In this document: one piece after another, positions 5,798 to 64,000 of the stretch
How positions within the stretch are numbered: position 1 is the first letter of the stretch
How the letters are laid out: each line of letters begins with the position of its first letter
Origin: Annona cherimola
Taxonomy: Eukaryota > Streptophyta > Magnoliopsida > Magnoliales > Annonaceae
DNA length: 64,000 bases
Assembly (NCBI GenBank): GCA_030490835.1
Contig: CM059973.1
Coordinates: 50,038,008 to 50,102,007, forward strand
Reading direction: 5' to 3'
Notes under the pieces: model-generated
Seen by the model: the letters and a program-made list of their open reading frames with translations, nothing else
Databases searched by the model: none
What the model was told of the DNA's origin: nothing
Program-made: the position numbers and the translations under genes

Positions 5798-6514
5798 AAT
5801 ATTGTTGGTCCCGAGTTAATGGCAATTACCCAAGAGGGGAGGGGTGAATTGGGTATTTAAAGATTTTCAACTTAAACAGAAATTTTACCTCAGATTAATC
5901 TAGTCCCCTTTATGAATAAACAAATGGAAAGCAATATAGTGCTGAGAGCAGAAATATAAATCAACAAGCAAGATTTTATAGTGGTTCGGGCAACCCTCCC
6001 TACTCCACTCTTCCAAGCTCACACCTCTTGTGACTTGGGTTCCACTATGTATTTCACAAATACAACTAGAACCACTGCTCTTTTCTAGATTCCAGCTCTA
6101 GGGGACATCAACAATTCACAGTACAAGTAGGTGACGAGTTCCACTCCAATCACACACTACTTTGCTTACACTTGATCTTAGTTACCCAAACTAAATCAAG
6201 TTTAATACAACAAGAAAAAGTAAAAGAAAGTTTCTACACGTTACTGGTGTGTAGAGGCAGATTTGGCACAGGGAAGAACTTGTAAAACAGTCTGAAAGAT
6301 TCAACGAGCAGCTCTTGGCAGTTTGAAAGCAAGGTTCTTCTTCTAGATGTTGGCTTGATCACTTAATGCTCTTAGAGATGGGAGTTATGCTCATTCAATG
6401 AATTCTCAGCTACCCTCCATGTTCATATTGAATGCCTTATATAATTGTTGAGGGAATCCGAATGTTTGGAAGTAGGTGGCGCGCATTTAATGCACCAACG
6501 TTCGAAAAATTTCT

Positions 6515-6710
6515 GACCATTGCAACCCAAGTCGCAAGTGGAGTCAACTTCGGGTGCGACTTCACCCAAGTCGCAGATGGAGTCGACTTCGAGTGCGACT
6601 TCGCCTGTCCGCAGCTTCTTCAAGTTCCAGTCTGGGTCGACTTGGTCCTCGACTTGACCCAAGTCGCAGGTGAAGTCGACTTCGGGTGCGACTTCACTTC
6701 CTCAGCTTGT
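6515..6710 (-). repeat. GTCGAC/AAGTCGC palindromic array (solo LTR U3)
   Basis: Repeated CAAGTCGCA ... AGTCRACTTCG ... TGCGACTT units, equivalent to the array at 53425-53610 of the young 5' LTR, in inverted orientation. Confidence 0.75.
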
Positions 6711-6854
6711 TAGTTGAACTTGAAATTCTTTGGAATGTCTTGCTTGCTTGAATTTCTTCATGTTTGATTGTTCTTCTACCATTTTATGTAACTTAAGACT
6801 CTTTATGTTTCTTCTATCTTAAAAACATTTGATACCATGTCTTGAGTCTTGAAT

Positions 6855-9800
6855 TGTCAAACCCCGATCTTAGATACATGTATGAAACCCTGAGGTTGTA
6901 AACTTTAGGTAATATATTAATATATATTCATGAGTATGAAAAATATATGGGAATAGATGTTAAAATAATTAATTATGAAATTCGGATGAGTAGTGCATAG
7001 TGCACGTGAATAGTGAAATGTGAATAGTAAACGTGGGATTAAAAAAATATTAAGTTAATCACTTTGGATTAATTTAATCACAAAAAGACAAAAAAGGAAG
7101 CTTCCCACAAAAGGACAAAATAGCAACTTTTTGATTTATTTAGTATTTTCGGATTTTTAATTGATTTTTGAAGAAAATGAAGAAAAATTCATATCTTGCA
7201 ATCCGGACATCGGATCAAGATGTAATTTTTTATGGGTGGCCAAGATATGATGATGGATATGATGAATGGTCCAAGATTAATCAAGGATCATGAATTAAGG
7301 GTCAAGATTAAATGTCATTTGAAAAGGGAAAAAGTAACTTTACTTTTTCATTAATGGCATTTGACTTTGATTAATTTTAATTAAATAAAATTAATGCAAA
7401 GCCTGCAATTGCTGCTGGAGCATGGACTTTTGGGGCATGATCCAATGGCCCATGATCATCCTCATCAAGAACCAACGGCTAGGATTTAATTTTCTTAAAA
7501 TAAATAAATTTTAATAAATAAAAAAGCTAGAAAAATAGGGCTGCAATAGGGGGGATGGAGCAGGCCTAGGGTGGGCTGCACAAGGCTCCATGCACCTTTT
7601 GGAAATTAGAAAAAAATACATTTATAATTTAATACCTCAAGCAAGGGGGGTAAATTCCAATTTGATGAAAAATCAAAAAGTATAAATAGGGGGCAGGGGT
7701 GAACGTCAAAGGCACTTCATCCCAGCTCCATTTGAGCATTTTTTCACCCCCACCACGTTTTAGCCTTGAGGAGAAAGAAAAGGAGGAAGTTAGAGAGAGA
7801 AAGTGTGAGAAAAAGTGGGATATCTTCACTTCGGGTAAGTGATTTCTTCCCAAATTTCTTTTGAATGTTAATTAGGGTAAAACCATGCTTAGATAATGCC
7901 TAAGCATGAGAAAATAAGTAAATTTATAATGATTAATCGGAATCATGCCGAAACATCGAAAATTTGGAGCAAAGATGGAGCATTCGGGAAGATAGTATAT
8001 GATATGTGAAAATAATGCTCCAAAATTGATAAATGATGATTTGGGATGTATGATTATGATGAATATGATGTTGGAATGATGATATATTAATTTCATGATT
8101 TTCGGAATTAAGGATTATGCTTAAGTGAATTTATGTTGATTTTTAGTACATGGAGAAAATGATTTATTTAACCAAGTAAATGATGATAAATTCAAAATGT
8201 ATGAAATTTCCCATGATATACGAAGCATAAGCTATGTCATGGTATTTTTTATTTTTGGGAAAAATGTCAATTTTTGGAACCCATGAACAGTAACCACGTT
8301 GCTGTGAACAGTAACGTGAACAGTGATGATGAACAGTAATATGCTACAGTGACATGAACAGTAATTATGAACAGTGAACAGCGTATTTTGGGAAAAAATT
8401 GAGATTTATTTTTGTATATTTATGAGGATATATGGATGGAATTTTTAAAGGATTTATGGATAAAAATTCATATAAATGAGTAATGACCAAGTATTTATAA
8501 AAGGAAAACATCTATAAAAATGAGGTAATATGTGATCGTAAAGCATGCATGGGAAGCAAGCTAAGCATGGAATAGATGGATAAAATATCCAATTTCCTTG
8601 TATAGGAAAATGAAAGGAAAGGATAAAGGAGTCAGATTGAAGCAAAGCAAAGGTAAGCAAGCAAGCTTTTTAAAATATGATTTTATTGTTTCATTGTAAG
8701 CAAGCAAACCCTTTTGAAAATGTGATTTTATTCTCAAGTATTTATGAAATGTGTTTTAAGGATGATCATTCTTATAATGTTTTGAAACGATGAATGTTTA
8801 TAAGTTTTTATGGAAAGTCATGCCGGCATATTGATATCATGTGATGTTCATGGACATGTGCACATGTATAATGTATAAGGAAGAGGCTTTGGTGGAGGTA
8901 GAAAGCGGATCAGAGGGTCCCCCTTCACTATTGCCGAGTCGTATGGGCTGTGTGCCGACGGCGTCCTCCCCAGAGGTGGAGGCAAATGAATGTTATGTGT
9001 GAATGGATGCATTGCATTTTCATACATGAATTGAAAAGAAAAGCATGGATTTGAAATGATATTTTTAAATGAATTGTGCAAATAATTCTCTACATGAGAA
9101 TGACAAGCCACCTAGTGTAAGAGGCATATAATGCCGGGATAATCAAAAGTCATGCATGTAGGAACCATGTAGGCGTCAAGAGGAAGAGAGGTTCCCCTTG
9201 ATGAGGCCAAGTCGGAGACAGCCGGCGTATTGGACCATGCTATGTGAGATGTTCCCTGGACTAGCATACCCGCGCACGAAGGTTTATGTCAGAAGTGGAA
9301 AGGAAGCATTTGCACATCCAATGTTTATGAAAAGATTTCTATTCCATTGATAGTTGATCACTTGCTAAGTGTCTCCTATCGAATGGAGAGAAATGCATTT
9401 ATGAATGATTTTCATGAGTGGTTTATAAAAGGTTTCCAAAAATGGTTTACGAAAAGGTTTCTATTCAGTTGGTAGTTGATCACTTGGTAAGTGTCTTCTA
9501 CCGTATGGAGAGGAATGCATTTAAAATAAAAAAATGCTTGCTTATTGAGTTTAGACTCATGTTTTGTTTTCCCAACCTCAGACAGGTGTAGGGAAAGCCA
9601 AGAAATGAAGGACATGTGTTGCTAAAGGAAAAGAGGAATCTACAAAGGTTAGTAGATTTTTGTATGAATAGATTCCCTAATGGGATATGATGAAAAAGAC
9701 ATAGGTTGTATGAAATTATGAAGTGATGAATAATATGAGAAGTTGATGATTTATGATGTTATGGATAAGTCCATTATGAATGATGATGAGTATATGTTTA

Positions 9801-9950
9801 TATGATGAAAGAAAAAGAAATGAAAAAAAATTGGACGAGATCCAATTAAGTACCTGCCGCGTGATCAGGGCAACAATCCTGATTCACACTTACCAATCGA
9901 TAAGATCCCGGAGTAAGGACAAATGTGACGCCTCGGTTCAGGGCACCACA
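6855..9950 (+). repeat. 3.1-kb solo LTR (family Y), probably Gypsy type
   Basis: Begins TGTCAAACCCC and ends GGGCACCACA. A perfect 5-bp target duplication TGAAT flanks it (6850-6854, 9951-9955), and it sits inside the inverted solo LTR 5803-10584. A TATA box (TATAAATAGGGGG) lies at 7681 and its copy near 63664. The second copy at 62814 onward is readily alignable. Inside are GTGAAYAGT motif clusters (about 6985-7035 and 8283-8385) and a roughly 125-bp tandem duplication (TAGTTGATCACTTG near 9350 and 9472). No reading frame is meaningful. The Gypsy assignment is inferred from length and the GACGCCTCGG-type end. Confidence 0.85.
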
Positions 9951-10139
9951 TGAATCCTTGAGTATTGGAGTGTATAAGAGAGGTCCAAGTGATGATCTCG
10001 ATTCTCCATGAAAATATGCAACTTTGCTTGCTTTGGACTTTATTTGATTTTCATTTGAGTGTTTGAGTTGTCTTGGCCTTCATCTTCACATGAATCTAGC
10101 ATTGAGCCGTCTTGATCTGCAAGTTCCGCACTAATGTGA

Positions 10140-10452
10140 AGCTGGAGTCGACTTGGTCTGCGACTTCACCCAAGTCGCATGCGGAGTCGACTTCGTTTGC
10201 GACTTCGGCAGCTCTCATCCCCGATTTCAACTCTGGACAGAATTGACGCCTCGAAATCGAAGTTGAAGTCGACTTGGTCTGCGACTTCACCCAAGTCGCA
10301 TGCGGAGTCAACTTGGGATGCAACTTCGGTAGCTTTGCTCCTCGATTTCAATTCTGAATAGAAATAACGAGTCGAAGTCAATGCTGGAGTCGACTTGGGG
10401 ATCGACTTGGCCTAAGTCAATGCTTGAGTCGACTTGGAAATCGACTTAACCT
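10140..10452 (-). repeat. GTCGAC/AAGTCGC palindromic array, second block
   Basis: At least five units with GAGTCGACTTGG or GAGTCAACTTGG cores flanked by TGCGACTT or AAGTCGCA arms, equivalent to 52816-53112 in the young 5' LTR. The two blocks are separated by the inserted LTR. Confidence 0.75.
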
Positions 10453-10589
10453 GTCGTGCTTCATTTTCTTCATTTGTATAACCTTTAATCATTTTCACAA
10501 ATATGTTAGTAACCAAAACTTACTCAAATTAATATATTAATCATCAAAACATAGACTTGGCTTATTTTCCACATGTTTCCAACAAATAT

Positions 10590-34900: not shown

Positions 34901-37900
34901 ACTGGAGAGATGAGGGTATCCAAATTAAATTCTAATCTAACATCTTTTCAAGGAACAACTAAACCATTGCTTGAACAATACACAAGTAGGGAAAAGAGTA
35001 ATCCAGTTTCTCGATTTGATGTTTTCGTTGTGGGGGTAAAGGTCATATTGCATCACAATGTCCTCAGCACACACTCACAATTAATCATGTAAAGGATCAT
35101 GAAAATGTGACCATTGATCAAGTTGCTGAAACTTTTGAGGAACCATCGGATTGTGAACTTGATGGAGACTATAGCTATAATGAGGACTCACAATTAAATA
35201 TTGCGCGTTGCATTTTGACTACTTCTTCAAATAGTGATTGGAGACGTACAAATATATTTCATCAATATTTTAAATGTGGGAATACAGTATGCAAGATTGT
35301 TATAGATGAAGGTAGTTCTATGAATGTGATTGCCAAATCAGCTATAGCCAGATTGAATTTGAAAACTGAACCACATCCTCATCCATATCGTATAGCATGG
35401 GTAGACAAAACTGCACTTCCTGTTAATGAAAGATGCTTGGTTCCTATATCGATGGGTGATTATTCTGATCATATTTTGTGTGATGTGCTACCCATGGATG
35501 TGGCTCATATTCTTCTTGGTCGTCCATGGCTATATGACTTAAAAGTAATCCATTATGAGCAACCAAACACCTATATTATCAAGCATAATGGAAAATCTAT
35601 CCTTTTGAAGCCTGCTAAACCTAAAGAAAGTGATAGATCCCACAAAGAGTCTCCATTTGATTCATCTGAAAAACGACATTTGCATATTCTTACAAGAAAA
35701 CAATTTGAAAAAGAAAGACAAGATTCAGGACTCATTCTAGCTATAGTAGCCAAAGAGGACACAAATACAGCTCAAAAGAGAAACACTGGACTATACACTT
35801 CTCTGCCTATACCACATATTCTTTGGCTAAACATTAGTATGGACTTTATTCTCGGATTGTCTAAAACCTCTCGAGGATTTGATTCAATTCTTGTGGTAGT
35901 TGATAGATTTTCAAAAATGGATCATTTTATCCCATGTACTAAATCTGCTTATGCTTCATATATTGCAAAATTATTCTTTAGAGAAATTGTTAAGCTTCAC
36001 GGGTTACCAACTTCCATCATTTTTTATTGGGATGTTAAATTTGTAAGCTATTTTTGGAAAACCTTGTGGAAACTTTCTAGTACCAAATTGAAATTTTCAT
36101 TTGCTTTTCATCCACAAACTGATGGCCAAACTGAGGTAATCAATCGGAGTTTAGGAAATCTGCTTAGGACTTGGTGGGAGAACATATAGAAACTTGGGAT
36201 TCTGTATTGGCTATTGCCGAATTTGCATACAACAATTCAGTCAATTGTTCTACTGGGAAATCTCCTTTTAAAATTGTCTATGGTTATATTCCTCGAGCTC
36301 CCATCGATTTAATTCCTTTACCCATTGATACCCGTTCATCTGGTACTGCTGAATCTTTTGCTCAACACATTCGAGATATTCATGCTGATATTAGAAGAAA
36401 GATTACTCTAAGTAATGAAAATTATAAGCTTGCTGCAGATGTTTATAGAAGAAAACAAGAGTTTGATGTTAGGGATTACGTCATGGTTCGTGTCCGTCCA
36501 GAAAGATATCCTAAAAATTCTTTTAAAAAGTTGCATGCACGAGCCAGTGGACCCTTTCGTGTTTTAAGAAAATTGAGATCCAATGCATATGAACTTGATT
36601 TGCCTTCAAATATAGGAATTAGTTGTATTTTCAATATAGAGGATTTGTTTCCTTACCGAGGCACTTTTGAGCCTCCAAGTTTGTCTGCAGGAATTTCAAC
36701 AGATAACAGTTCAACATCACCACATGTGCCTATACTTCCACGAGTATCATCTACTTTTTCAGATCAGATAAAGAATATCCTACAAGATGAACTTGTCACT
36801 ACTGGATCGGGCATTATGCAAAGATTTCTTGTCAAGTGGAAAAACAAGTTTGATTCTAATGCTACATGGGTTACTAAAGATGACCTACGCCACTTGGATC
36901 CGAATATTCTTGAGCAGTATCAAAGTCAGAACTCTCCGGTGGCGAGTTTTTCGAAGCCGGAGAGAATTGATGAAAATAGAAAGAAATTTTTCAAATCCGT
37001 CTATTCTAGGCGCAAGAATTTTGTAAAAGGGAAATAATCCTAGGATATTTTAGAAAGATTTTATTTTGCTATTTTTGAAAGATATTAGAATATTCCTATG
37101 ATATTTTAGAATCTGTTTAAAATAAGCATGTATCTATTTTAAGTTTACTTCCTTAAGAAGTTTACTTAAAATATACAACTTCCTTTTCTAGAAGGATTTT
37201 CCTATGATATTTTAGAATCTATTTAAAATAAGCAAGTATCTATTTTAAGTTTACTTCCTTAAGAAGTTTGCTTAAAATATATATTTCTTTCTCTAGCAGG
37301 ATTTTATTTGCTAAGATTATGTGGTATGTTCACCTATAAATACAGCTCTTGTAAGCTCTAAAGGGGCATCAATTTTGAAATTTATAAAAGTGTTCTCTAG
37401 TTCTTCTTCTACTTGTTCTTGTTCTTCTCTCATTATTCATCTGTTCTTTCTACCTTCTTTCTTCACTTCTCATCTCTAGAGGTTTCTTCCTCTTTCTTCT
37501 ATTTTCTTCTCTACCCATCCTACATCATGCTTACTGTGGCACAATCACAATATTTCAACCAAGGGACTAGGAGGGTAGTCTACCTAGCAGAAGGATAGAC
37601 CTTTATATAGGCACAACATGTACACATGGATAACATCATCAACATTTAAACTCATCATATGTGCAACTACCATCGTTGGCTACTTATAGTTTGACACAAG
37701 GGTATAGGTGACTGTGATCTAGGACTCATGGACCCCTAAAGTCACAATCTCCATGAACCAATCCAATATCCACTTCATGTTGGTCCATATTCAAGACTCC
37801 TGCTGTAAACAAGACTGTCCTGTGGATGAAGAAGTGAAGGGGTAGCAAACCCATAACAGTAATGGCAAGTATGCAAGGAGGGGTACTTTGTTGAGGACAA

Positions 37901-44150: not shown

Positions 44151-44834
44151 CTCTTCTGCATAACTTAGTTATATAAAACTATTTTTACATAACCTGGTCA
44201 TGTAGAAGCAAAACCATAAATAATAGTAACAATGACATGACAATCAATTAACAATAGCAAGAAATGGAAAAATCCCTCTACTTCCTTCTCATTTTGATGT
44301 AATAAAATATCTTAACTTATTAACAATTATTGTTTTTATAATGTGCTTGATATTTAATAAAATTTTTGAATAAAAATTTTTCGAAAGAAAATTTTTAAAT
44401 AAATTTTTTTTAGAATTTACCAAACACACCCTAAATAATAATATTATTTTATTTTTAATTCTTTATTTCTAATTATTATTCTTATCATATTACATCATTT
44501 TCTTGTTCTCTTAATTTTTTAAATTATAATTTTATAAAACTAGAACCCTTTGTTATATTAGTTAAATATATTTTTCTAAATACAATTTATTTTCTTTTTC
44601 AATTCGAGCTCCCTTAGCTTGTCTTTCCCTTTTATCTTATTTACTTTTTTTTTCATTTTCAATGCGAGCCACATAACAAATTTTTACATGATTTTCAACA
44701 TTTTCTTCATCCCTTACGCATTTACTGTAATTAATTGACGGATCTTCATTAACATAGACATCAACTTTTAGACCATTCAATTCCTTTGCCTGCTAAATGG
44801 ATGTGCTCTTTTAATTCTACGATTTTTGCCAGAC
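44146..44834. other. AT-rich intergenic DNA, no gene seen
   Basis: No reading frame of note; probably includes the decayed 3' part of the gag remnant that follows. Confidence 0.4.
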
Positions 44835-45085
44835 TTTTAAAACTTTCATGACCTTCTCATTTTCGGAAACTTCTCTTTCTGAACCTTTGAGATTTCTAGT
44901 GATAATTAAAATTTTATTATACATCTCAAAAATATTGTCATCTTATGGCGTTCTAAAATTTTTAAGTTCTCTAATAAGAAGATGCCTCTTTGTCCCCTAG
45001 AATTTGGAGAAACCCTCATAAATGGACATTAACTTGTCTCATATATCCTTCATAGTATTTCATAATGAAAATTTATCAAAGTCAG
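44835..45085 (-). pseudogene. Decayed copia-type gag (UBN2-like) fragment
   Basis: The minus strand reads DKLMSIYEGFSKF.GTKRHLL then IRELKNFR ... EMYNKI ... SEREVSENEKVMKVLK, the same order as WDTLTSIYEGTSQVQGTRRN ... ISEMFARFSKI ... SESEQVMKILRALP in the intact gag at 54491. Stops and frameshifts are present. Confidence 0.6.
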
Positions 45086-45192
45086 AAGTTGAAAGGGCAC
45101 AATGGTAAGTTCATTACTTTGACATTAGTTTTGATGACTTTGGTTCGTTCCTAAGTCTAATTGCTAATGTCATCGCTTTCTAGTAATACAAA

Positions 45193-47033: not shown

Positions 47034-48965
47034 GTGGTTATGAATATCAGCACTGAGGAGCTGCTGGGGTCCGAACTCCAGACACTGTCTATCAATTGTA
47101 ATGCGATCAGGAAGGTTGTTCCAGGTGAGGAGCCTGCATTGTTATGCACTCTTTGGGCGTCGAAAACCTATAACAAAGAGCAGTTCAAGGGAATGTTGTG
47201 GAGGCTATGGAGAACAAAAGGAAACCTTCACTTCACGGAGGTGGGAGAGAATCTGTTGAAGGCTTCCTTTTCTGTACTTGAAGATAGAAATCGGGTTATG
47301 GATGGTAGGCCTTGGCTGTATGAACGTAATCTGATCATCATCGAGGAATTAAGGGAAGAGACGGACTATGCACACCTCCTGCTCGTCAAAACGCCGATGT
47401 GGCTTCACATACAAGGCATCCCATATTTGGTTGATAAACACTGTCTGGGAGAGATAATAGCTCATACTTTTGATGATGTCCTTGAGATCAAAGGCTCGGA
47501 AGATGAAGTCAAGTTAAAAGTAATGTTGGACTGTAGGAATCCGCTTCGTCGGGGGATGTTCATTCGTGTGGGTGATCAGCAAAAACGGTGGATCAGTTTT
47601 CAATATGAGAAGCTGCCGTTGTTCTGTTACTTATGTGGTTTGATCGGGCACGCACACAAGGACTGCAGGAATGTTTCTCTGGAGAAACGGTGTCCGGTGG
47701 AGGCGGGATATGCCTTACGGGAGCTGGCTAAGGGCGGGCTCAAGACCGCTGAAACTGAGAGGGGAGCTGGGGTCTGCTTTCAGAGCTGCACCGGTGAAGT
47801 ATTTGGGCATGTATGGGCAGGGTGTGGAGGAAGGGGAGGAGTTTTCGAATGCTGCAACCGGTAGCGGGACTGCTTTGGGTGGAAGTCTGGAAGGCAGTGG
47901 CAATGGGTGCAGTGTGGAGCCGTGGAGGGTTATTGATATGGACACAGATTTGGGGGCAGCGACAGCATGGGATGCATCTGGCCAATAATTCTTTTCATCC
48001 AGTTGGCTCGGTCTCTCAGCTGGGAGCTAGTGTGTCCAGGCCAATTGCTGCAATGTCGTTGGGACCTGTCTTGGCACCCGATGACCAGCAGCAGGGTGCT
48101 CTGCCAGTTCTTGCGGGGCAGGGGCAACAGGGGGTGCACCTGGCCAACGATCCTGCTCATCCAGATGTCTCGGTCTCCCAGTTGGGCGTGGATTCAGCTA
48201 GTTTGCACCTCCGGGGGGTGGAGTGTATGGCTAGTGTGACCAGGCCAATTGCAGAATTGAAGGTAGGATCTGGTTTGGAACTACTTGTCTTGCTGCAAGG
48301 GGCTCCGTCAGTTCTTTCGTTTCCTCATGTGGGTGTGGACACCCGGGGGTGTGATGCATGGGGTGGAGTTGGGATCGGTTTCTCAAAGCAATGGGGGGAA
48401 TGGGGAGGGAGATGATGGTGATGCCAGTGGTAATGGGGTTGAGGGGCACCTAAGCATGGGGAAGGGGGGGGCAGCTGCTGCAATGGGAGGGGTGGTCCCG
48501 GGAATGTCGGGGTCGTGTATGGGGTTGTTGTCCCAAACCATGGGGGATCATTCTCATACCTTGGGAAACCATATTAAGGGCGGGATGGGGGCTGAAATCA
48601 CTCAGTGCGGGGAAAGTGAGGGGGGGTTGGTGGAAGTGGAGGTGCGTGGGGTGAGTGGCGGATCTAAGGGGCTTTCCTCTATATCTCTTGGGAGTAGGGG
48701 GAAGGTACCGGGGAAGCCATCTGTGGGGGGTAGTGAACATGGCTACTCCCCGGGGGGTAGGGGCAGGTGGAAACGGAGGAATAGACAAGTGAAAGGCATG
48801 AGGTTGAATGAGGCGGCTCCTATGGTCGGTCTACATGGGACAAAGAGAGGCCGCGATATGGACCCGGGGATAATGACATATGTCAACAAGCGGGCAAAGG
48901 ATATGGGCACGCAACTTGAGGGGGAGGTGGTAGCTTTGGGGACTCCCAAAGCCCACCTCCAGTGA
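47034..48965 (+). pseudogene. LINE ORF1: DUF4283 plus CCHC zinc knuckle
   Basis: Starts MNISTEELLGSEL. The DUF4283-type nucleic-acid domain (residues about 30-190: FKGMLWRLWRTKG, NLIIIEEL, PMWLHIQGIPY) is followed by knuckle CYLCGLIGHAHKDC at about 47626-47667. Downstream the frame shifts near 47700, 47985 and 48400 through a Gly-rich region with an internal repeat (HLANNSFHP... / HLANDPAHP...). The stop TGA at 48963-48965 is followed after one base by the ORF2 ATG. Confidence 0.85.
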
Positions 48966-48966
48966 T

Positions 48967-51900
48967 ATGGCCATTTTGGCTTAGAATTGCCGTGGGCTTG
49001 GGAATCCACGCGCAATTCGCAATCTTTTTGATCTTGTTAGACAACAAGCTCCCATATTAGTCTTTTTGTGTGAAACTAAAGCAAATAAGAAGGAAATGGA
49101 TCGGGTTAGATGTAGAATACATTTTGATTCCTGTTTTGTGGTGGAAGCAGCCGCTAGGAGCGGGGGTTTGGCTTTATTTTGGAATGATGACCACCCGGCG
49201 TCGGTTCGGAGCTTCTCGGCACATCATATTGACGCGGATTTTTTGGGTTGGCGGTTTACGGGGTTCTATGGTCACCCCGTGACTCACTGCCGCCATATTT
49301 CCTGGAATATCCTCAATCAGCTGGCAAACAACAGTGTTTCACCTTGGCTTGTGTTGGGTGACTTTAACGAAGTGTTGGGGCCAAGCGAATATCATAGTGA
49401 GAGGATGCGCAATCAATCCCAAATGGATTCTTTCCGTCACACTATGGATTTATGCAACTTGCAGAATCTTGGTTTTTCTGGGCCGTCTATGACATGGTGT
49501 AATAATAGGAGGGGTGCTCAGAGAGTCGAGGCTCGGCTAGATAGGGGGCTTTCAACTTCTTCTTGGACTGATCTATTTCCCTATGCTCGGCTGACCCACC
49601 TTGCTGCGGCCTCGTTCGATCATTGCCCGCTCTTGTTACTTCTTGATCCTGCGCGGGGGAGGAGGAGGCCCCCAAAGGAATTCAGATACGAGTTATTCTG
49701 GGCTCGTGACTCCGAGGCCACAAATATCGTCGAGAAGGTTTGGATGTCCTCCGGCTCTGGGGAAGCAAATATTTATGAGTCTATGAGTGGCAAAATACGG
49801 AGGTGTGGCGCAGAGCTTTCCAAGTGGAACAATATGAAAAGGGGAAATATCAAACGGGCACTCGCAAGGAAGCAGCGGGAGCTATCAGAGTTGGTGACTG
49901 TGCCATATTCTGCGGCACGGGAAGAAAAAATCAGGAGAACCAAGTTTCAGATAAATCTTTTACTGGAGGATGAGGAGATGTTGTGGAGCATTCGTGCAAA
50001 GGCCCACTGGCTTAAGGATGGGGACAGGAATACACGTTTTTTCCATCGGATGGCTTCCAACCGGAGGCGAACAAATTTTATTGAGTCTCTCATTGGTTTG
50101 GATGGGAAACAAGTTTGGGACCAAGAAGAGATGCTGAACCTGTCAGTTTCCCATTTCTCAGAATTATTTACATCCTCAAACCCTCATGATTCGAACTGGG
50201 TCCCTAGCCTCATTCAAAGGAAACTTACTGAGGAACAGAGCTTGGGTTTGATTAGGCCTTTGTGTATGGCCGAGGTTGAGAAGGCTGTCAAGGGTATGGG
50301 CCCAACCAAGGCTCCGGGGCCGGACGGTTTGTCTCCGGGTTTCTTTCAGCGGTATTGGCACATTGTTGGTCAGGATATCTTCTGTTGGTGCAAAACTTTC
50401 ATGGAGGGGAGGGATCACAATCAGTTGACGCGTCACATCCGGGAGACAAATGCTACTACTATTGTGTTGATTCCTAAGATGGCGGGCGCCCAAACTTTGT
50501 CGCAGTTTAGACCCATTAGCCTATGTAATGTGATTTATAAAATTTTGGCTAAGGTTTTGGCGAACAGGCTGAAAGTTGTTCTCAACGACGTCATTGGAGC
50601 GGAACAAAGTGCTTTTGTGCCGGGGAGGCTTATCACTGATAACATGTTGATTGCATATGAGGCAATTCATTCTCTCAGGCAGCGTATGGGGGGTCGACGG
50701 CGCGAGTTGGCAATCAAGTTAGACATGTCCAAGGCGTATGATCGCGTAGAGTGGAGTTTTCTGAAAGTGGTCACGGAGGCTATGAATTTTTGCCCAGTCT
50801 GGATAAACTGGTTGTTATGTTGCATTTCCTCTGTCAGCTACAGGGTTAAGGTGAATGGCTTCACTTCCAGACTATTCTACCCGGGGAGGGGTCTGCGGCA
50901 GGGGGATCCCTTGTCCCCGTATCTTTTCCTTCTGTGCGTGGAGGGTCTATCGGCGCTCATTTCTTCTGCGGTAACCCGGGGTTCTTTGCATGGGATAAGG
51001 CTTAATTTCAGGGGGCCCCAAATTACCCACCTCTTGTTCGCTGATGATGCTCTTATTTTCCTCCGGGCGGATGATGTGGATATCACGAATTTCTTGGATA
51101 TTCTCAGAATCTACTCTGCCTCCTCGGGGCAGATGGTAAATGTTGACAAAACGTCGCTATTCTTCAGTGCCAATATGGACAGGGTGGAACGTGAGGCGTG
51201 GGCGAGCAGATTGGGGTCTTCGGGACTCGAAGTTCAGAATTATCTTGGTCTTCCGGCGTGGCTTGGGAGATCAAAATGCAGATTGTTCAGAGGCATCAGG
51301 GATCGCATCGGGCATAAAATCCAAGGATGGAAGGGCCGGCTCTTATCCTGGGGGGGGGAAGGAGGTGCTCATAAAAGCTGTGGCTCAAGCTACCAACCTA
51401 CGTGATGAGCATCTTTTTGCTTCCCAAGTCGTTCTGTAAGGATATAATGGGGTTAATTAGAAAGTTTTGGTGGGGTGAACATGGGGATAAAAAGAAGATG
51501 TGTTGGGTTGCTTGGAATGATATGTGCAAGGCCAAATGTGTGGGGGGTATGGGGTTTAGGGACCTCCACGACTTCAATTATGCCCTCCTCGCCAGGCAGG
51601 TGTGGCGTCTCTCATCAAATCCTGATTCTTTTTGCTCAAGGGTTCTCAGGGCTAAATACTTCCCATACTCGAACATTTGGGACTGTGTGTCTCGTCAGTC
51701 CGATTCTTTCACATGGAAGGGCATTCTCAAGGCACGGGACAGGTGTCGGGATGGGTGCAGGTGGAGGATTGGTGACGGTAGAAGTGTTCGCTTCTTCTTG
51801 GACGATTGGTTGGAGGGTGGTTTGCGCAAGGCGGGGCCGCTTCCCCTATCTATCCCGGAGGATGTTTCGGTTAGTTACTTCATTGTGGCGGGGGCTGCTA

Positions 51901-52692
51901 AATGGAATAGGGACAGGGTGTTGGCGGCTGTTGGTGAGGTGGGATGGCAGGCTGTGAGGCGTGTTCCCCTTCCCCGCCTTCCCACGACGGACTGCATCTT
52001 TTGGAAGAGCGAGGCAAGCGGTCAGTTTTCTGTCAGGTCTGCTCATAGATGGCTTTCGGGTGAGCATGATGTGGCGCCGCCATCTTGTTGCTACAGGGCT
52101 ATTTGGAAGTCGGGGCTCCCGAGCAAGATTAAGATCTTTGGGTGGCGGCTATTTAGGGATTCTCTCCCGACTTTTTGCAATCTTTCAGGGAGGGGCCTGG
52201 ACGTAAACCTTCTGTGCCTCTTTTGTTCTGGGGAGGCCGAGGATGTTCACCATTTATTCCTTAGATGTGATAAAGTGGTAAGTTGTGTAAGGGGGCTTGT
52301 CCCTGCGAATCTCTGGTTATCCTCCGTTCAAGATATCTTGTGTCACCTGGCTTCTAAGTGCGGGGGAGGCGTGTTCACTCTTTTCATTGTCCTATGCTGG
52401 CGTATTTGGTTTATGAGGAACAAGCTCCATGCTGAGGGGGTCCATCCCGCGTTTGCGGATCTTCTCCCTTAGTGTAAGGACTACATTGAGCAACTGGTGC
52501 GTGTCAGGCTCTTGGATTTTGGGTCCGCATTGGATAGCCAGCTCATCACCAAATGGACCATGCCACCGGCGGGTGTGTTCAAGATCAATGTGGACTCTAG
52601 ATGCCCTGTGGGGCGTGATGTTTGCTGTGTTGCTGCTGTTATTCGTGACGAGCGTGGTTATTTTATTGCGGCCCGTGGCATGAAGTGGAGGG
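48967..52692 (+). pseudogene. LINE ORF2: endonuclease, reverse transcriptase, zf-RVT, RNase H (first part)
   Basis: ATG at 48967, with an in-frame TAG at 48982 where the family has Trp before NCRGLGNPR. The AP-endonuclease follows (CETKA, GDFNEVLG, FDHCPLLLL), then RT (FRPISLCNVIYKILAKVLANR, SAFVPGRLITDN, KLDMSKAYDRVEW, GLRQGDPLSPYLF, catalytic FADD near 51040). Two frameshifts at a run of G (about 51351-51359) and near 51390 lead into the frame 51402-52472 with the zf-RVT module. A TAG at 52470 precedes the RNase H start (KINVDSR ... CVAAVIRDERGYF), which is cut by the LTR element at 52692. Confidence 0.92.
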
Positions 52693-52815
52693 TGTTGGAA
52701 ACAATGTTCAAAATAATCTAAATTGACCAAAGTCTGAGTTTTGATGATTAACAAGAACTTATTTGAGTATATAAAGAGTACTAACATGTTTGAAAAATGT
52801 TTAAGGAAAGCAAAG

Positions 52816-53112
52816 AGGTCAAGTCGATCTCCAAGTCGACTTGGACTTCGACTTGGGTGAAGTCGATCCCAAAGTCGACTCAAATATCGACTTGAGAATG
52901 AATCTCAAAAGGCAACAGGTCAAGTCGCAGGTCAAGTCGACTCCACTTGCGACTTGGGAAGTCAAGTCGCAGACGAAGTCGACTCCAGCATCGACTTGGA
53001 GTATCCAGAGCTGAAAAGTGGAAACGAACATAACGAAGTCGCAAACGAAGTCGACTCCAGGTGCGACTTGGGTGAAGTCGCAGGCCAGGTCGACTCCATC
53101 CACGACTTGAGA
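52816..53112 (+). repeat. GTCGAC palindromic array, block 1 (U3)
   Basis: Six GTCGAC cores, mostly as AAGTCGACT, flanked by CAAGTCGCA on the left and TGCGACTTG or ATCGACTTG on the right, so each unit can fold back. Identical at 56658-56954. Confidence 0.85.
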
Positions 53113-53424
53113 TGTTCAAACTTTCAAAGATGCTGTTTTCAAGATATTCAAGAGGATTTATCACTCAAGTCCAAGGAATCAAGATGAAAAACAAATGAGT
53201 CAACTTCAAAGTTAAGAATCATGTTCTACATTCAAATCAAGTCTATCAAGCTCAAAGCAAATCTTCAAGCTAGCTTCCAAATGAAGTAAAATCCAAGTCA
53301 TGAAGACCAAGTGAGTCCAAAGCAAAGCAAGGAACATACATATATTGTGCAAGAACTCAAAGCTTTCAAATGGTTTGCAAGATTCAAGACATTTCAAGAA
53401 GATCAAGGCGTTTCTGCAATAGAC

Positions 53425-53610
53425 CAAGCCAAGTCGCAACCCAAGTCGACTTCAGGATCGACTTGAGTTGAAGTCTGAAAGCCAAGTCGACCCAAGTCTC
53501 AGACTTGAGTTTCTGAAGAACCCAAGTCGCAGGCCAAGTCGACTCCATGTACGACTTGGAAGCCAAGTCGTAGGCCAAGTCGACTTCATCTTCGACTTGG
53601 AGTATAACGG
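53425..53610 (+). repeat. GTCGAC palindromic array, block 2 (U3)
   Basis: Four GTCGAC cores with the same arms, about 70 bp upstream of the TATA box. Identical at 57267-57452. Confidence 0.85.
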
Positions 53611-53681
53611 TCAAATTTTCGAACGTTGGAGTTCATTTATTGCACGCCAACCACTTCTACAACGTTCATATTTTCCTCAAT

Positions 53682-53691
53682 CTATAAAAGG
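53682..53691 (+). promoter_or_regulatory. TATA box of the TR-GAG 5' LTR
   Basis: CTATAAAAGG between the second motif array and the transcribed leader; copy at 57524 in the 3' LTR. Confidence 0.7.
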
Positions 53692-54026
53692 ACATTCAAA
53701 TGAACGTAAGAAGAAGCAAGAGACACTACTCTAAAGATCAAAGAGAGAAAAGAAGTGCAAGAAAGATTTTCAAATACCTTTTCTTCATACTTGAGTGTTT
53801 CAAAGGAAGAAAGAGCTTCAAACTGCAAGTTGCTTCAACAATCATCATTCAAGCTACTTTTGATTTCTTCCTCGAGCTCAAAACTGCCTACACAAATCTG
53901 TAAAGTGTAGTTTTTATTCATTTCTTTATTTGGTTGTATAAATCTTGATTTAGCTTGGGTAGCTAAGATCAAGTGTATGCAAAGTAGGGTGTGATTGGAG
54001 TGAGACTCATCACCTACTTGTGCAAG

Positions 54027-54180
54027 TAGTTGTATATGCCCCCTAGAGCTTTGAATCTAGAAGAAGAGCAAGTGGCTCTAGTTGTATATGCCCCCTAGAG
54101 CTTTGAATCTAGAAGAGAGCAAGTGGCTCTAGTTGTGTATGCCCCCTAGAGCTTTGAATCTAGAAGAGAGCGGTGACTCT
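54027..54180 (+). repeat. Three-fold tandem repeat in the LTR
   Basis: Units of about 52, 51 and 50 bp beginning AGTTGTATATGCCCCCTAGA. Repeated exactly at 57869-58022. The solo LTR at 5803 has a single unit (6064-6115, inverted). Confidence 0.9.
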
Positions 54181-54444
54181 AAGTGTATTCTTGGAATACA
54201 TAGTGGAACCCAAGTCACAACGGAGTGTGAGCTTGGAAAAGTGGAGTAGGGAAGGTTTGCCCGAACCACTATAAATCTTGTGTTCTACTTATTTTTACTG
54301 CTTTATCTTATTTGCTCTCCATTCGCTTAAAAAGGGGATTAACTTTTTCAAGGGGTTAAGATCTTTGAGATTATCAAAGAAATTTTAAAGAACCCAATTC
54401 ACCCCTCCCCTCTTGGGTTTAGCCATCAACTCGGGACCAACAAG

Positions 54445-54457
54445 TGGTATCAGAGCA
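54445..54457 (+). other. Primer binding site, initiator tRNA-Met
   Basis: TGGTATCAGAGCA, two bases after the 5' LTR end. Confidence 0.9.
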
Positions 54458-54490
54458 GGTCTTTGAGTTTATCAAAGAGATCTTATTGAA

Positions 54491-56095
54491 ATGGCATCCC
54501 AATCTACTTCCGTTCCCGCATTTGCTGAAGGCCAATCCTTTACAAGGCCACCATTGTTTGATGGGAACAATTTTGGATATTGGAAGCTTCGTATGAAGCA
54601 ACTCATCATGGCTACCGACATGGACTCTTGGATTGCTATCCAAGATGGAGTAACCTTGCCTACCGATGAAAGAGCTTCCAAATGGACCGATGAGGAAGTA
54701 AGAATAGTGAAGAGCAATGCCAAAGCTATGAACTCCTTATTTTGTGCTCTCACTGCTTCTGAGTATGATAGAGTATCCTCTTGCTTAACCGCCAAAGAGA
54801 TATGGGATACACTAACCTCTATCTACGAAGGAACTTCTCAAGTCCAAGGGACGAGAAGGAATATTTTGATTGGAGAACTAGAGAACTTTAGAATGCTAGA
54901 AACAGAAAATATTTCTGAAATGTTTGCTAGATTCTCTAAGATTACTAATGCTTTAAAAGGTCTTGGAAAAGCAATATCTGAATCTGAGCAGGTCATGAAG
55001 ATTTTAAGAGCTCTACCCGAATCATGGACTCCAAAGATCACTGCAATTGAAGAAGCCAAAGACCTCAACACGCTGAAGCTTGAAAACTTAATTAGCTCAC
55101 TTATGTCACATGAGCTAATTAAGAAAAGGAATGAAGATCAACACAGGGGCAAAAGAGCAATTGCCTTAAAAGCCGCACAAGACATCGATGACACATCTTC
55201 TTCTCAAAATGACGACGAGATTGCTCTACTCACAAAACGATTTAGAAAATTTGTGAGGAAAGGCAAAAATTTCAGAAGCTTCAAAGAAAGAACTCCCCGA
55301 GAGAAGAAGAAAGAATCAACCAAGTGCTACCGATGCGGCGGTTCGGGACATATGCAAGCCCAATGTCCAACTCCCGAAGAAATTAAGGCAAAAGAACAAA
55401 GAAAGGATAATCCAAGGGGCGTCCTTCCTTACGGCACTTGGATCACAAAGATCCTCGAACATTTTGAAGTAGACATTGAAGGCGAGCCATTCGAAGTGCT
55501 CAAGTCCACAAATGCAATCAACAAGGCACTAATTCAGAGGATGAAAATCAATGTACTTGAACTCCGACCCGATGCTCCAGAAGAAGAGCATCAAGAGGAC
55601 CAAGCACAAGCTGAGGGGGAGCAACCTCCCGAAGCACCGGCTGCTCCAGAAGAGCCACCATCACCTCAATCCCACGACTCCTACTCCCCACAAGGATCCG
55701 TTGCACGAGAACGGGTACCTCCAACCGCTTCTGAGGAGGTCACCCTAAGGGATCTCAAAGATGAAATCATTGCCATGAGGGCAGAAATGGGCTATCAAGA
55801 AAACCAGATGACAAGTCTTGTCACCAGTGTCCTTAATGCAATTGAAGATATGCATTCCCGACAAGATAGAATCGAGCGGGAAATGCGAAAAATCAGATAT
55901 CATCTTGCATCAGGCCATCATAAAAAGAGATCCATGCCTGAACTCGATCCCTACGAGTCGGGTTCAGTTCATAGAGAGGCAACTCCCGATCACGCTTCTC
56001 TTGTTTACTCCTCGGCCCATCATTGTCCCATCAAACCTATTCCATATCCCATCTCTCAATTTCAATTTACCAAATCTTTGGTACTTTTTGAATGA
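54491..56095 (+). CDS. gag: Copia-type Gag (DUF4219-UBN2-zinc knuckle) with a C-terminal extension
   Basis: 534 residues, uninterrupted; ATG 48 bp after the 5' LTR. Residues 14-40 are DUF4219-like (FTRPPLFDGNNFGYWKLRMK). Residues 60-225 are the UBN2 gag domain (WDTLTSIYEGTSQV, ISEMFARFSKITNALKGLGK, ILRALPESW, LISSLMSHEL). A basic stretch KFVRKGKNFRSFKER leads to the knuckle CYRCGGSGHMQAQC (about 278-291). From about residue 310 it departs from ordinary copia Gag: LPYGTWITKILEHFEVDIEG...STNAINKALIQRM, then a Glu/Pro/Gln-rich spacer and a likely coiled coil (EVTLRDLKDEIIAMRAEMGY ... RQDRIEREMRKIRYH). No pol domain follows. Inferred role: capsid protein of a non-autonomous element. Confidence 0.88.
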   Translation: MASQSTSVPAFAEGQSFTRPPLFDGNNFGYWKLRMKQLIMATDMDSWIAIQDGVTLPTDERASKWTDEEVRIVKSNAKAMNSLFCALTASEYDRVSSCLTAKEIWDTLTSIYEGTSQVQGTRRNILIGELENFRMLETENISEMFARFSKITNALKGLGKAISESEQVMKILRALPESWTPKITAIEEAKDLNTLKLENLISSLMSHELIKKRNEDQHRGKRAIALKAAQDIDDTSSSQNDDEIALLTKRFRKFVRKGKNFRSFKERTPREKKKESTKCYRCGGSGHMQAQCPTPEEIKAKEQRKDNPRGVLPYGTWITKILEHFEVDIEGEPFEVLKSTNAINKALIQRMKINVLELRPDAPEEEHQEDQAQAEGEQPPEAPAAPEEPPSPQSHDSYSPQGSVARERVPPTASEEVTLRDLKDEIIAMRAEMGYQENQMTSLVTSVLNAIEDMHSRQDRIEREMRKIRYHLASGHHKKRSMPELDPYESGSVHREATPDHASLVYSSAHHCPIKPIPYPISQFQFTKSLVLFE

Positions 56096-56520
56096 TTGAC
56101 AAAAAGGAGGAGGAAGATAGGTTAGATTTGAGTGTTTTTTGGGTTGGGTAGTTTGTATCTAGGATAGTTTCATTTATGCTTCATTGATGAATGTAATGAA
56201 ACTTCATATATATATGAAATGATGTCTGGTATGATAATTGTTTTATGATTAATTGGTTTATGATTGATATATGATTGATATTAAAACAGAGTTTGAATGA
56301 ATGATATATTTGATCAATGATTACAATACAAAGTATTCTTAATGATTAATACTCAATATGTGGCTTGTAAGATATTCAAGCATACTCTATGCCAAAATGA
56401 TTAAATGTTCTCAAAACTCTAAATTATATGTTCAACGATACCTATATGCTCTGTTTTCTCAAATGAATATGTTTGAAATTTTTGAAAGGTATCAACTCAA
56501 ATGAAGTTTTGTCAATCATC
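56096..56520. other. Non-coding interior of the TR-GAG element
   Basis: 425 bp of AT-rich sequence between gag and the polypurine tract. No trace of protease, integrase or RT was found. Confidence 0.7.
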
Positions 56521-56534
56521 AAAAAGGGGGAGAT
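56521..56534 (+). other. Polypurine tract of the TR-GAG element
   Basis: AAAAAGGGGGAGAT immediately before the 3' LTR. A similar AAAAAGGAGGAGGAAGA lies just after the gag stop at about 56100. Confidence 0.85.
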
Positions 56535-58284
56535 TGTTGGAAACAATGTTCAAAATAATCTAAATTGACCAAAGTCTGAGTTTTGATGATTAACAAGAAC
56601 TTATTTGAGTATATAAAGAGTACTAACATGTTTGAAAAATGTTTAAGGAAAGCAAAGAGGTCAAGTCGATCTCCAAGTCGACTTGGACTTCGACTTGGGT
56701 GAAGTCGATCCCAAAGTCGACTCAAATATCGACTTGAGAATGAATCTCAAAAGGCAACAGGTCAAGTCGCAGGTCAAGTCGACTCCACTTGCGACTTGGG
56801 AAGTCAAGTCGCAGACGAAGTCGACTCCAGCATCGACTTGGAGTATCCAGAGCTGAAAAGTGGAAACGAACATAACGAAGTCGCAAACGAAGTCGACTCC
56901 AGGTGCGACTTGGGTGAAGTCGCAGGCCAGGTCGACTCCATCCACGACTTGAGATGTTCAAACTTTCAAAGATGCTGTTTTCAAGATATTCAAGAGGATT
57001 TATCACTCAAGTCCAAGGAATCAAGATGAAAAACAAATGAGTCAACTTCAAAGTTAAGAATCATGTTCTACATTCAAATCAAGTCTATCAAGCTCAAAGC
57101 AAATCTTCAAGCTAGCTTCCAAATGAAGTAAAATCCAAGTCATGAAGACCAAGTGAGTCCAAAGCAAAGCAAGGAACATACATATATTGTGCAAGAACTC
57201 AAAGCTTTCAAATGGTTTGCAAGATTCAAGACATTTCAAGAAGATCAAGGCGTTTCTGCAATAGACCAAGCCAAGTCGCAACCCAAGTCGACTTCAGGAT
57301 CGACTTGAGTTGAAGTCTGAAAGCCAAGTCGACCCAAGTCTCAGACTTGAGTTTCTGAAGAACCCAAGTCGCAGGCCAAGTCGACTCCATGTACGACTTG
57401 GAAGCCAAGTCGTAGGCCAAGTCGACTTCATCTTCGACTTGGAGTATAACGGTCAAATTTTCGAACGTTGGAGTTCATTTATTGCACGCCAACCACTTCT
57501 ACAACGTTCATATTTTCCTCAATCTATAAAAGGACATTCAAATGAACGTAAGAAGAAGCAAGAGACACTACTCTAAAGATCAAAGAGAGAAAAGAAGTGC
57601 AAGAAAGATTTTCAAATACCTTTTCTTCATACTTGAGTGTTTCAAAGGAAGAAAGAGCTTCAAACTGCAAGTTGCTTCAACAATCATCATTCAAGCTACT
57701 TTTGATTTCTTCCTCGAGCTCAAAACTGCCTACACAAATCTGTAAAGTGTAGTTTTTATTCATTTCTTTATTTGGTTGTATAAATCTTGATTTAGCTTGG
57801 GTAGCTAAGATCAAGTGTATGCAAAGTAGGGTGTGATTGGAGTGAGACTCATCACCTACTTGTGCAAGTAGTTGTATATGCCCCCTAGAGCTTTGAATCT
57901 AGAAGAAGAGCAAGTGGCTCTAGTTGTATATGCCCCCTAGAGCTTTGAATCTAGAAGAGAGCAAGTGGCTCTAGTTGTGTATGCCCCCTAGAGCTTTGAA
58001 TCTAGAAGAGAGCGGTGACTCTAAGTGTATTCTTGGAATACATAGTGGAACCCAAGTCACAACGGAGTGTGAGCTTGGAAGAGTGGAGTAGGGAAGGTTT
58101 GCCCGAACCACTATAAATCTTGTGTTCTACTTATTTTTACTGCTTTATCTTATTTGCTCTCCATTCGCTTAAAAAGGGGATTAACTTTTTCAAGGGGTTA
58201 AGATCCTTGAGATTATCAAAGAAATTTTAAAGAACCCAATTCACCCCTCCCCTCTTGGGTTTAGCCATCAACTCGGGACCAACA
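56535..58284 (+). repeat. 3' LTR of the TR-GAG element
   Basis: 1750 bp, offset 3842 from the 5' LTR, with two transitions: A to G near 58085 and T to C near 58207. Confidence 0.93.
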
Positions 58285-58289
58285 GAGGG

Positions 58290-58678
58290 GAGGTGGGGAT
58301 ACTCTGTTTTGTGAGGCAAAAGCTTTTATTTTTGGCGTTCGTTGGGCTCTCCACCTCGGGTTTCGTAGGGTCCACATCGAGTCGGACTCGCTTATCCTCT
58401 GCACTTATCTGGCAAATGACGGCCACATCGCATCGCCGGCGGGTCATATCATTGATGAGATCAGGGGCGTGCTATGTGAAAATGATCACATTTCGGCTCT
58501 CCATGTTCTTCGACAGGGAAATTCTGTGGCTCATACTGTTGCGGATATGATTTCGGTTTCTCCTAGGAATCATCTGGAATGGTGGGGAAATCCCCCACAT
58601 GATATTGTTGAGAAACTCTGTACTGATAACTTTATCGCTATGAATTCTGTGGATTACTCTATCCCGACCCCTCTTTAA
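58290..58678 (+). pseudogene. LINE ORF2 RNase H, second part
   Basis: After the LTR element and one copy of GAGGG, the RNase H domain continues in frame 2: GDTLFCEAKAFIFGVRWALH, HIESDSLILC, HVLRQGNSVAHTVADM, ending at TAA 58676-58678. Removing the LTR element and one GAGGG joins the two parts without a frame change, so the insertion alone breaks this domain. Confidence 0.88.
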
Positions 58679-58742
58679 TGGGGGTTGGTCGGGGTAGGAG
58701 TTATTCCTTTTCATCAAAAAAAAAAAAACACTAATAAATAGG

Positions 58743-59118
58743 AGCCTTGATCTTTTACGGCCGTACGCGCGGGCCCAAAACCTATTTTTGTCATTTTTTC
58801 CATGGGTAAGTAAATCTATGTGTATTAAATCTATAAACCAAGTTTTACCATTTTTGGATGTTTTTAAGTATTTTTTTGAATTTTTAAACACTGTGGCATT
58901 TTTGTAATTTTTGGAGCTCAGAAAATTATAGAAATGCCACTGTGTTTAAAAATCCGAAAAAATACTTAAAAATATCCAAAAATGGTAAAACTTGGTTTAT
59001 AGATTTAATACATCTAGATTTACTTACCCATGAAAAAATGAAAAAAATAAAAAAATGGGTCTTTTGGGCCAGACGCACAGAGCAGGTCGTGCGTCCGGCT
59101 GTAAAAGATCAGTTGGCT
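58743..59118. mobile_element. MITE, hairpin family 1, copy G (MULE type)
   Basis: Ends AGCCTTGATCTTTTACGGCCG and CGGCTGTAAAAGATCAGTTGGCT are inverted repeats. Flanking 9-mers ATAAATAGG (58734-58742) and ATGAATAGG (59119-59127) differ at one base, the target length of Mutator-like elements. Inside are the family arms (GTGTATTAAATCTATAAACCAAGTTTTACCATTTTTGGATG and inverse). The left 9-mer overlaps the LINE target duplication. Confidence 0.75.
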
Positions 59119-62489: not shown

Positions 62490-62813
62490 ATTAGACATAT
62501 AAGCAGCTTGTCGTGGAGCGACTGACACACCATCGGGTCTTCCAACCAATAAGCTTTTCTATCTCTTTTCTTTTTTAATTTGAATTGCCTTATTTAAGTT
62601 GAGTTTGATTTTAATTTTATTTTGAACTTAAACATGTTCGGCTAAGCGCTAAATCTAGGGTTTAGGATATTGCATGCATATAATATAGCATAGTGTGTGC
62701 TTTTAATTTATTTATGATGGATATTATTGTTAATTTAATATCTTATAATTTTTAATGTTTACTTGTACATGGGCCCGTATTTTGGCATGATTCTATATTT
62801 TTGGTGATAGAAC
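62490..62813 (+). repeat. LTR X copy 1, third segment
   Basis: Complement of 60465-60762 in copy 2 (shared CACACCATCGG, ACCAATAAGCTTT, TAAACATG, GGGCCCGTA.TTTGGCATGATTCTATAT). It stops at AGAAC where LTR Y begins. Confidence 0.7.
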
Positions 62814-64000
62814 TGTGAAACCCCAATCTTAGACACATATATGAAACCCTAGGGTTGTAAACCCTAGGTAATATGTTAATAAAATATATATTCATGAGTA
62901 TGGAAAACATGTGAGAATAAAGGTTAAAATAATTATTTATGAAATTCGAATGAATAGTGCACGTGAATAGTAAAACGTGAATAGTAAAACGTGAATAGTA
63001 AACGTGGGATTAAAGAATATGTTAAGTTAATCACTTTGGATTAACTTAATCACAAAAAGACAAAAAAGGAAGCTTCCCACTAAAGGACAAAAGTGCTTTT
63101 TGGATTAAAATATTAATTTTCGGATTTTTATGGATTTTTGTGAAGAAAATGAAGAAAAATTCATATCTTGCAATCCGGATGTCGGATTAAGATGAAATTT
63201 TTTATGGATGGCCAAAATATGATGATGAACATGATGAGTGGTCCAAGATTGATCAAAAATCATGAATTAAGGGTCAAGATTAAATGTCATTTGAAGATCA
63301 AAAAGTAGCTTTACTTTTTCATTAATTAGCATTTGACTTTGGATTAATTTTAATTAATTAAATGGATAAATAATTAATGAAAATCTGCTATGGCTGCTGG
63401 AGCTTGGACTTTTGGAGCCAAATCCAATGGTCCAAATCCATCATTATCAAAAATCAATGGCTAAGATTGAATTAGCCTAAAATAATTGATTTAATAAATC
63501 GAAAAATTATAAAAAATAGGGCTGCCATAGGGGAGGCGTGAACAGTATCTAGGGTGGCTGCACATGGCTCAAAGCACCTTTTGGAAATTAGAAAAAAATA
63601 CATTTATAATTTAATACCTCAAGCAAGGGGGGGTAAATTCCAATTTGATGAAAAATTAAAAAGTATAAATAGGGGGCAGGGGTGAACGTCCAAGGCACTT
63701 CATCCCAGCTCCATTTGAACATTTTTTCACCCCCACCACGTTTTAGCCTTGAGGAGAAAGAAAAGGAGGAAGTTAGAGAGAGAAAGTGCGAGAAAAAGTG
63801 GGATATCTTCACTTCGGGTAAGTGATTTCTTCCCAAATTTATTTTGGATATTAAGTAGGGTAAAATCATGCTTAGATAATGCCTAAGCATGAGAAAATAA
63901 GTAAAGTTATAATGCTTAATCGGAATCATGCCAAAACATCGAAAATTTGGAGCAAAGATGGAGCATTCGGGAAGATAGTATATGATATATGAAAATAATG
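62814..64000 (+). repeat. LTR Y, second copy (runs off the window)
   Basis: Begins TGTGAAACCCC and is collinear with 6855-8030 to the window end, including GTGAATAGT repeats (62955-63005) and TATA box TATAAATAGGGGG near 63664. Whether it is a solo LTR or the start of a complete element cannot be seen here. Confidence 0.8.

Follow-up and report, generated by a model that had tools for sequence, protein, structure and literature searches.

A young gag-only LTR retrotransposon of probable Sirevirus origin in Annona cherimola

We wanted to know how a long terminal repeat (LTR) retrotransposon with a gag gene but no detectable pol could have inserted recently into a plant genome. The question is raised by a 5.6-kb element lying inside a long interspersed nuclear element (LINE) in a 64,000-nucleotide stretch of Annona cherimola DNA (assembly GCA_030490835.1, contig CM059973.1, positions 50,038,008 to 50,102,007 of the forward strand), called here the window. 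The answer that we favour, with a probability of roughly 0.7, is that it is a non-autonomous, gag-only LTR retrotransposon of the TR-GAG type that descends from a Sirevirus and depends on an autonomous relative for its mobility. Its features are given below in window coordinates, all on the plus strand where a strand applies.

52688..52692, target-site duplication GAGGG, left copy
52693..54442, 5' LTR, 1750 bp, TG...CA, with 2 mismatches to the 3' LTR
54443..54456, Sirevirus-type junction AGTGG and 9-nt primer site TATCAGAGC, fitting the consensus of PMC2829016
54491..56095, single open reading frame (ORF) of 534 aa, residues 1 to ~305 being copia-type capsid and zinc knuckle
55406..56092, last 229 codons of the ORF, for which no relative was found; the full-length model predicts a long helix over residues 413-479
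55614..55621, AGGGGGAG octamer within the C-terminal part of the ORF
56105..56112, AGGAGGAG, resembling a polypurine tract (PPT), where the 3' linker begins
56495..56524, left arm of an inverted repeat, next to the PPT; the repeat scores 15, and the best of 1,000 Markov controls 12
56525..56534, terminal PPT AGGGGGAG and attachment dinucleotide AT
56535..58284, 3' LTR, 1750 bp
56581..56610, right arm of that repeat, beginning 46 bp inside the 3' LTR
56663..57440, ten palindromic GTCGAC-centred boxes (AAGTCG...AAGTCGACT...CGACTT) of the 3' LTR
57524..57533, TATA box CTATAAAAGG of the 3' LTR
58242..58254, poly-C tract CACCCCTCCCCTC, an integrase signal, close to the end of the LTR
58285..58289, target-site duplication GAGGG, right copy

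Each LTR is exactly 1750 bp long, starts with TGTTGG and ends with CCAACA, and their exact alignment leaves only two mismatches, both transitions (A/G at 54239/58081 and T/C at 54364/58206). The primer site AGTGGTATCAGAGC was found immediately 3' of the 5' LTR and the PPT AAAAAGGGGGAGAT immediately 5' of the 3' LTR. Within the internal domain of 2,092 bp, the longest stop-free run reaches 542 codons, against a median of 100 and a maximum of 244 in 2,000 first-order Markov copies of that domain, and the ORF that it contains matches the Pfam families Retrotran_gag_2 (E-value 3.2e-32) and zf-CCHC (E 6.7e-5). No pol was found in the internal domain, where stop-free runs outside the gag frame are all of 116 codons or fewer; its two other ORFs of at least 80 aa gave no Pfam match at E <= 1, shorter runs not being scanned. 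LTRs, target-site duplication, primer site, PPT, one Gag ORF and no pol found together make up the TR-GAG plan. A preliminary description of this DNA had reported this plan, the 1750-bp LTRs with two transitions, the exact GAGGG duplication, the primer site and the PPT, and all of these were confirmed. Its statement of one intact gag and no pol stands as to the single 534-aa ORF and the pol that was not found, but intactness applies only to the capsid and zinc-knuckle half. The LTRs also carry about three copies of a tandem repeat of ~52 bp (54027-54188 and the equivalent place of the 3' LTR), in the part downstream of the TATA box.

The age of the insertion was estimated from the two LTR mismatches. 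At 1.3e-8 substitutions per site per year the element inserted 44 thousand years (kyr) ago, with a Poisson 95% range of ~5-159 kyr, and at half that rate (6.5e-9) 88 kyr ago (11-317), which agrees with the tens of thousands of years proposed before. The target was the following LINE:

47034..58728, plus strand, host LINE, decayed and split by the element; 47034 is its first frame start, the 5' end being unmapped, and an A-run occupies 58716-58728

Its upstream part holds an ORF1-like frame carrying DUF4283 and zf-CCHC_4, followed by RVT_1 and zf-RVT (all by Pfam), and its downstream part holds RVT_3 (E 7.5e-14), the insertion point lying within the RNase H part. The 57 LINE residues directly upstream of the element, taken alone, gave no Pfam match. 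When the empty site was rebuilt by joining the flanks with one GAGGG, the reading frame ran unbroken across the insertion point; with RVT_1 and zf-RVT on one side and RVT_3 on the other, the claim of an insertion inside a LINE was borne out. The LINE is damaged elsewhere: its reverse transcriptase (RT) frame stops at 51405, the next segment lies in a different frame, and a stop ends the zf-RVT segment. The integration of the element itself is clean and recent.

To which lineage does the element belong? A set of non-coding features has been described that marks Sireviruses (PMC2829016), and most of it can be read here. The PPT AGGGGGAG is followed exactly by AT/TG at the 3' LTR junction (56525-56536), and the 5' junction CA/AGTGG/TATCAGAGC is the Sirevirus consensus of the same paper. 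The inverted repeat that borders the PPT, also a Sirevirus trait, has 23 matches in 28 positions plus AA up to the PPT, and none of the 1,000 controls was as good; its right arm begins 46 bp inside the LTR, compared with 28 bp on average in Sireviruses (PMC2829016). Both LTRs carry the same ten palindromic boxes, arranged in two clusters (six and four) separated by a gap. Against these ten GTCGAC hexamers, 1,000 Markov sequences contained 0.22 on average and never more than 3. The boxes stand upstream of the TATA box, as they do in 13 of 21 published Sirevirus elements (PMC2829016). The TATA box CTATAAAAGG itself is 989 bp into the 3' LTR and 83 bp past the last box, another CTATAAA occurring at 58111, and the poly-C signal CACCCCTCCCCTC at 58242 takes its Sirevirus place near the LTR end. 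By these signals the element can be placed more closely than "copia", as apparently Sirevirus-derived (SIRE/Maximus lineage).

Several observations weigh against this placement. Exact PPT octamers number only two, one of them in the ORF (55614), and AGGAGGAG at 56105 is a variant; published Sireviruses have 3-5 octamers in the linker (PMC2829016), though the element compared here is a derivative. The box core is GTCGAC and not the usual CGG-CCG, which the boxes of Tnd-1 likewise lack, and the first box cluster starts 128 bp into the LTR as against the published 200-400 (PMC2829016 for both). Across most of the box clusters CpG is ~0.9-1.3 of its expected level with a GC of ~0.35-0.52, values that do not establish a formal CpG island. 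Finally, an RT phylogeny, on which the definition of Sireviruses rests, is inapplicable to an element that has no pol, so this one would be a Sirevirus by its signals and not by an RT tree.

The element has the cis signals that a helper needs and a Gag shell that the model predicts to be complete, but it has no enzymes. The likeliest course appears to be that an autonomous Sirevirus moves it in trans. RNA polymerase II would transcribe the element from the LTR TATA box, and the capsid and zinc-knuckle Gag would package the RNA, alone or co-assembled with helper Gag. The RT of the helper Sirevirus would then start synthesis from tRNA-Met at TATCAGAGC and from the PPT AGGGGGAG, two signals that are seen in the element, and the helper integrase would join the AT/TG and CA ends and yield the 5-bp duplication that is observed. 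The preliminary description had proposed that the family may move by another copia's enzymes. A Sirevirus rather than any copia is now indicated, because the signals on which RT and integrase would act fit that genus, although this narrowing falls short of proof. The element probably derives from a pol-bearing Sirevirus that lost pol and the Gag C-terminus.

Several known systems can be set beside it. BARE-2, LARD and TRIM are plant LTR elements that are likewise non-autonomous and believed to move in trans; BARE-2 is without a functional gag but keeps pol, and LARD and TRIM are without coding capacity, whereas the element described here keeps gag only. The gag-only class is already known, as TR-GAG elements, reportedly from the work of Chaparro et al. 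in 2015; the element is of an ordinary kind, with Sirevirus signals. Two LTRs, a single Gag ORF and the absence of pol are shared with TR-GAGs, a likeness of plan; the signals here are Sirevirus-type and the Gag tail is unlike the Gag C-termini tested. One TR-GAG, Arabidopsis AT5TE33540 (ATCOPIA63, with a 562-aa GAG), transposed in ddm1 and has a potentially autonomous partner in its subfamily (PMC8704663). In barley, RLC_Giselle has a potentially intact gag without RT and integrase and likely depends on the autonomous RLC_Inga (PMC5738225); an element named Inga is listed among Sireviruses (PMC2829016), tied to RLC_Inga by name only. By description, RLC_Giselle is thus alike in being a copia without RT and integrase, with a potentially intact gag and a partner of the Sirevirus genus, and it differs in likely representing another host and family. 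With autonomous Sireviruses the element shares the terminal PPT, attachment sites, primer-site junction, inverted repeat, LTR boxes, TATA box and poly-C signal. It differs from them in having 5.6 kb against an average of 10.55 kb (PMC2829016), no pol and fewer PPT copies, and the Gag C-terminus of the relatives compared is unlike its tail.

A full Sirevirus could also have inserted recently and then lost its middle (the 3' end of gag, pol and the start of a 3' frame) in a single local deletion, which would make the element a one-off that was never mobile as gag-only. The unmatched C-terminal tail does continue into a 3' linker whose PPTs are Sirevirus-like, which is what a deletion junction would look like, and no further copy of this internal part was seen within the 64-kb window. 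We nevertheless hold this history to be unlikely: the deletion must date to roughly the last 5-160 kyr and keep one unbroken 534-codon frame, and gag-only elements are a recognised class, PlantLTRdb counting 3,147 TR-GAG in its total of 520,194 intact elements (PMC10025401).

We then compared the Gag with its relatives. A protein search in which 7,990 candidates, those sharing most words with the query, were scored gave 41 homologs at E <= 1e-3, with 25-48% identity, none of them spanning more than 59% of the query. Eighteen of these were aligned and split at the first zinc knuckle into N- and C-terminal parts; the C-terminal profile was made from 17, P0005 being omitted with a C-terminus of less than 100 residues. 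We take these relatives to be probable Sirevirus Gags by their long C-termini, second CCHC and WVPK. The N-terminal half of the query matched the profile of the 18 homologs with an hhalign E of 2e-82 and a probability of 100%. In the structural model, residues 16-215 matched a capsid fold, the fold search effectively covering residues 15-215, and the Gag shell domain is predicted to be complete. As judged by sequence comparison, the resemblance to copia Gag is confined to residues 1 to ~305, which comprise capsid and zinc knuckle. The last 229 residues do not align with the C-termini of the relatives in the profile comparison, a result that goes beyond the preliminary description.

It could be argued that the whole ORF is the ordinary Gag of its lineage, with a C-terminus that has simply diverged. 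The C-termini of the relatives, looked at by eye in the alignment, also seem rich in heptad-like helical sequence, the tail is predicted to be helical, and WITK at residue 317 fits a loose W[VI]xK pattern; this is the only fit in the query, and 12 of the 18 relatives fit in their C-termini. Simple divergence seems doubtful to us, however, as hhalign gave the tail a probability of 0.1% against the 17 C-termini when the N-terminal halves reached 100%, and the tail has neither the second CCHC present in 7 of the 18 relatives nor the GP...WVPK present in 9 of them. Direct searches found no relative of the tail among 905 candidates (E <= 1) or 21 candidates (E <= 10). Pfam at E <= 10, a range in which the HMMER filters discard most matches above 0.1, returned RBD_SIN1, GCN5L1, DUF16 and TTRAP, all far below the curated cut-off and rejected as chance helix matches. 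Transposase_32 (PF20167) was considered as a lead and is unsupported, being missing from these Pfam rows, an absence that fast divergence of such frames could also produce. That family has been reported for the extra ORF of Athila (PMC11728184).

Where, then, might the tail come from? It is open over 229 codons, which has a chance of ~1.2e-5, while the five other frames contain 5 to 16 stops, so the tail probably descends from coding sequence. A helix of 56-67 residues is predicted in it. In SIRE elements an extra frame is found downstream of pol in 74%, and these frames sort into 19 groups that resemble one another little or not at all (PMC6317226). We tentatively suggest a chimera, in which a Sirevirus capsid and zinc knuckle would have been joined, in the same reading frame, to the C-terminal portion of the 3' env-like frame (eORF-3'F), giving a coiled-coil-tailed shell protein in a gag-only family propagated by a helper Sirevirus. 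It is plausible that a deletion starting at the zinc knuckle of gag and ending in the 3' frame would yield what is seen: a Gag front, an unmatched tail, a Sirevirus-like 3' linker and AGGAGGAG soon after the stop. A partial survey of the literature on TR-GAG and non-autonomous Sirevirus elements found no description of a Gag/3'-frame fusion. The foreign-looking Gag tail is the uncommon detail of an element of otherwise ordinary kind.

Two related sequences were found in the window:

5803..10584, minus strand, older solo LTR of a related family with target-site duplication ATATT, split by a ~3.4-kb insert; pieces 67-80% identical, same termini
44760..45101, minus strand, decayed related gag remnant (tblastn 46% over 114 aa, E 1.4e-22), with stops in all three minus-strand frames

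The solo LTR shares the U5 end and termini with the LTR of the element and has the poly-C signal at 5846. As both sequences are related to the element, its kin have integrated in this genome, and near this place, earlier; neither is an autonomous partner. At the first differing site of the LTR pair the solo LTR has G, like the 3' LTR, so the change occurred in the 5' LTR; the second site falls in an ambiguous part of the alignment. An older insertion whose differences were wiped out by LTR-LTR gene conversion, a process that is known generally, is very improbable, since the 534-codon ORF and the target duplication are equally undecayed and the mismatch that could be polarised is a 5' LTR change, as in ordinary decay. 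Outside the window, 8 pattern matches to the gag in viral_contigs were obtained and none was confirmed, and the exact pattern of the PPT/LTR junction was absent from viral_contigs and genome_contigs, neither of these collections being built from plant genomes.

Other sequences of the window were also noted. A 1.2-kb repeat is present twice (6851-8017 and 62810-64000, 88% identical), the first copy sitting in the insert of the solo LTR. At 32822-37527 lies an element whose LTR pair is 95.8% identical over 575 bp. Its primer site, TGGTATCAGAGC, is at 33399, and SH3_Tf2-1 and a chromodomain occur together in one frame; from these features it is probably a decayed gypsy element of chromovirus type. 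A 395-aa open frame on the minus strand (18106-19293) matches formate-tetrahydrofolate ligase (PF01268, E 4.7e-141, profile positions 119-417 of 556) and probably represents either a host-gene exon or a pseudogene. Palindromic repeats at 58783-59049 and 3991-4268, 91% and 85% self-complementary, belong to one family (~80% alike) and look like foldback elements or miniature inverted-repeat transposable elements, the copy at 58783 standing just past the tail of the LINE.

Altogether, the element is young and clean, its cis signals are readable and pol is the missing part, which makes helper dependence testable. If the suggested chimera is true, its ORF would be a natural Gag-Env-like fusion, and the tail raises the question of whether the fast-evolving 3' frame of Sireviruses may have been co-opted as a Gag domain.

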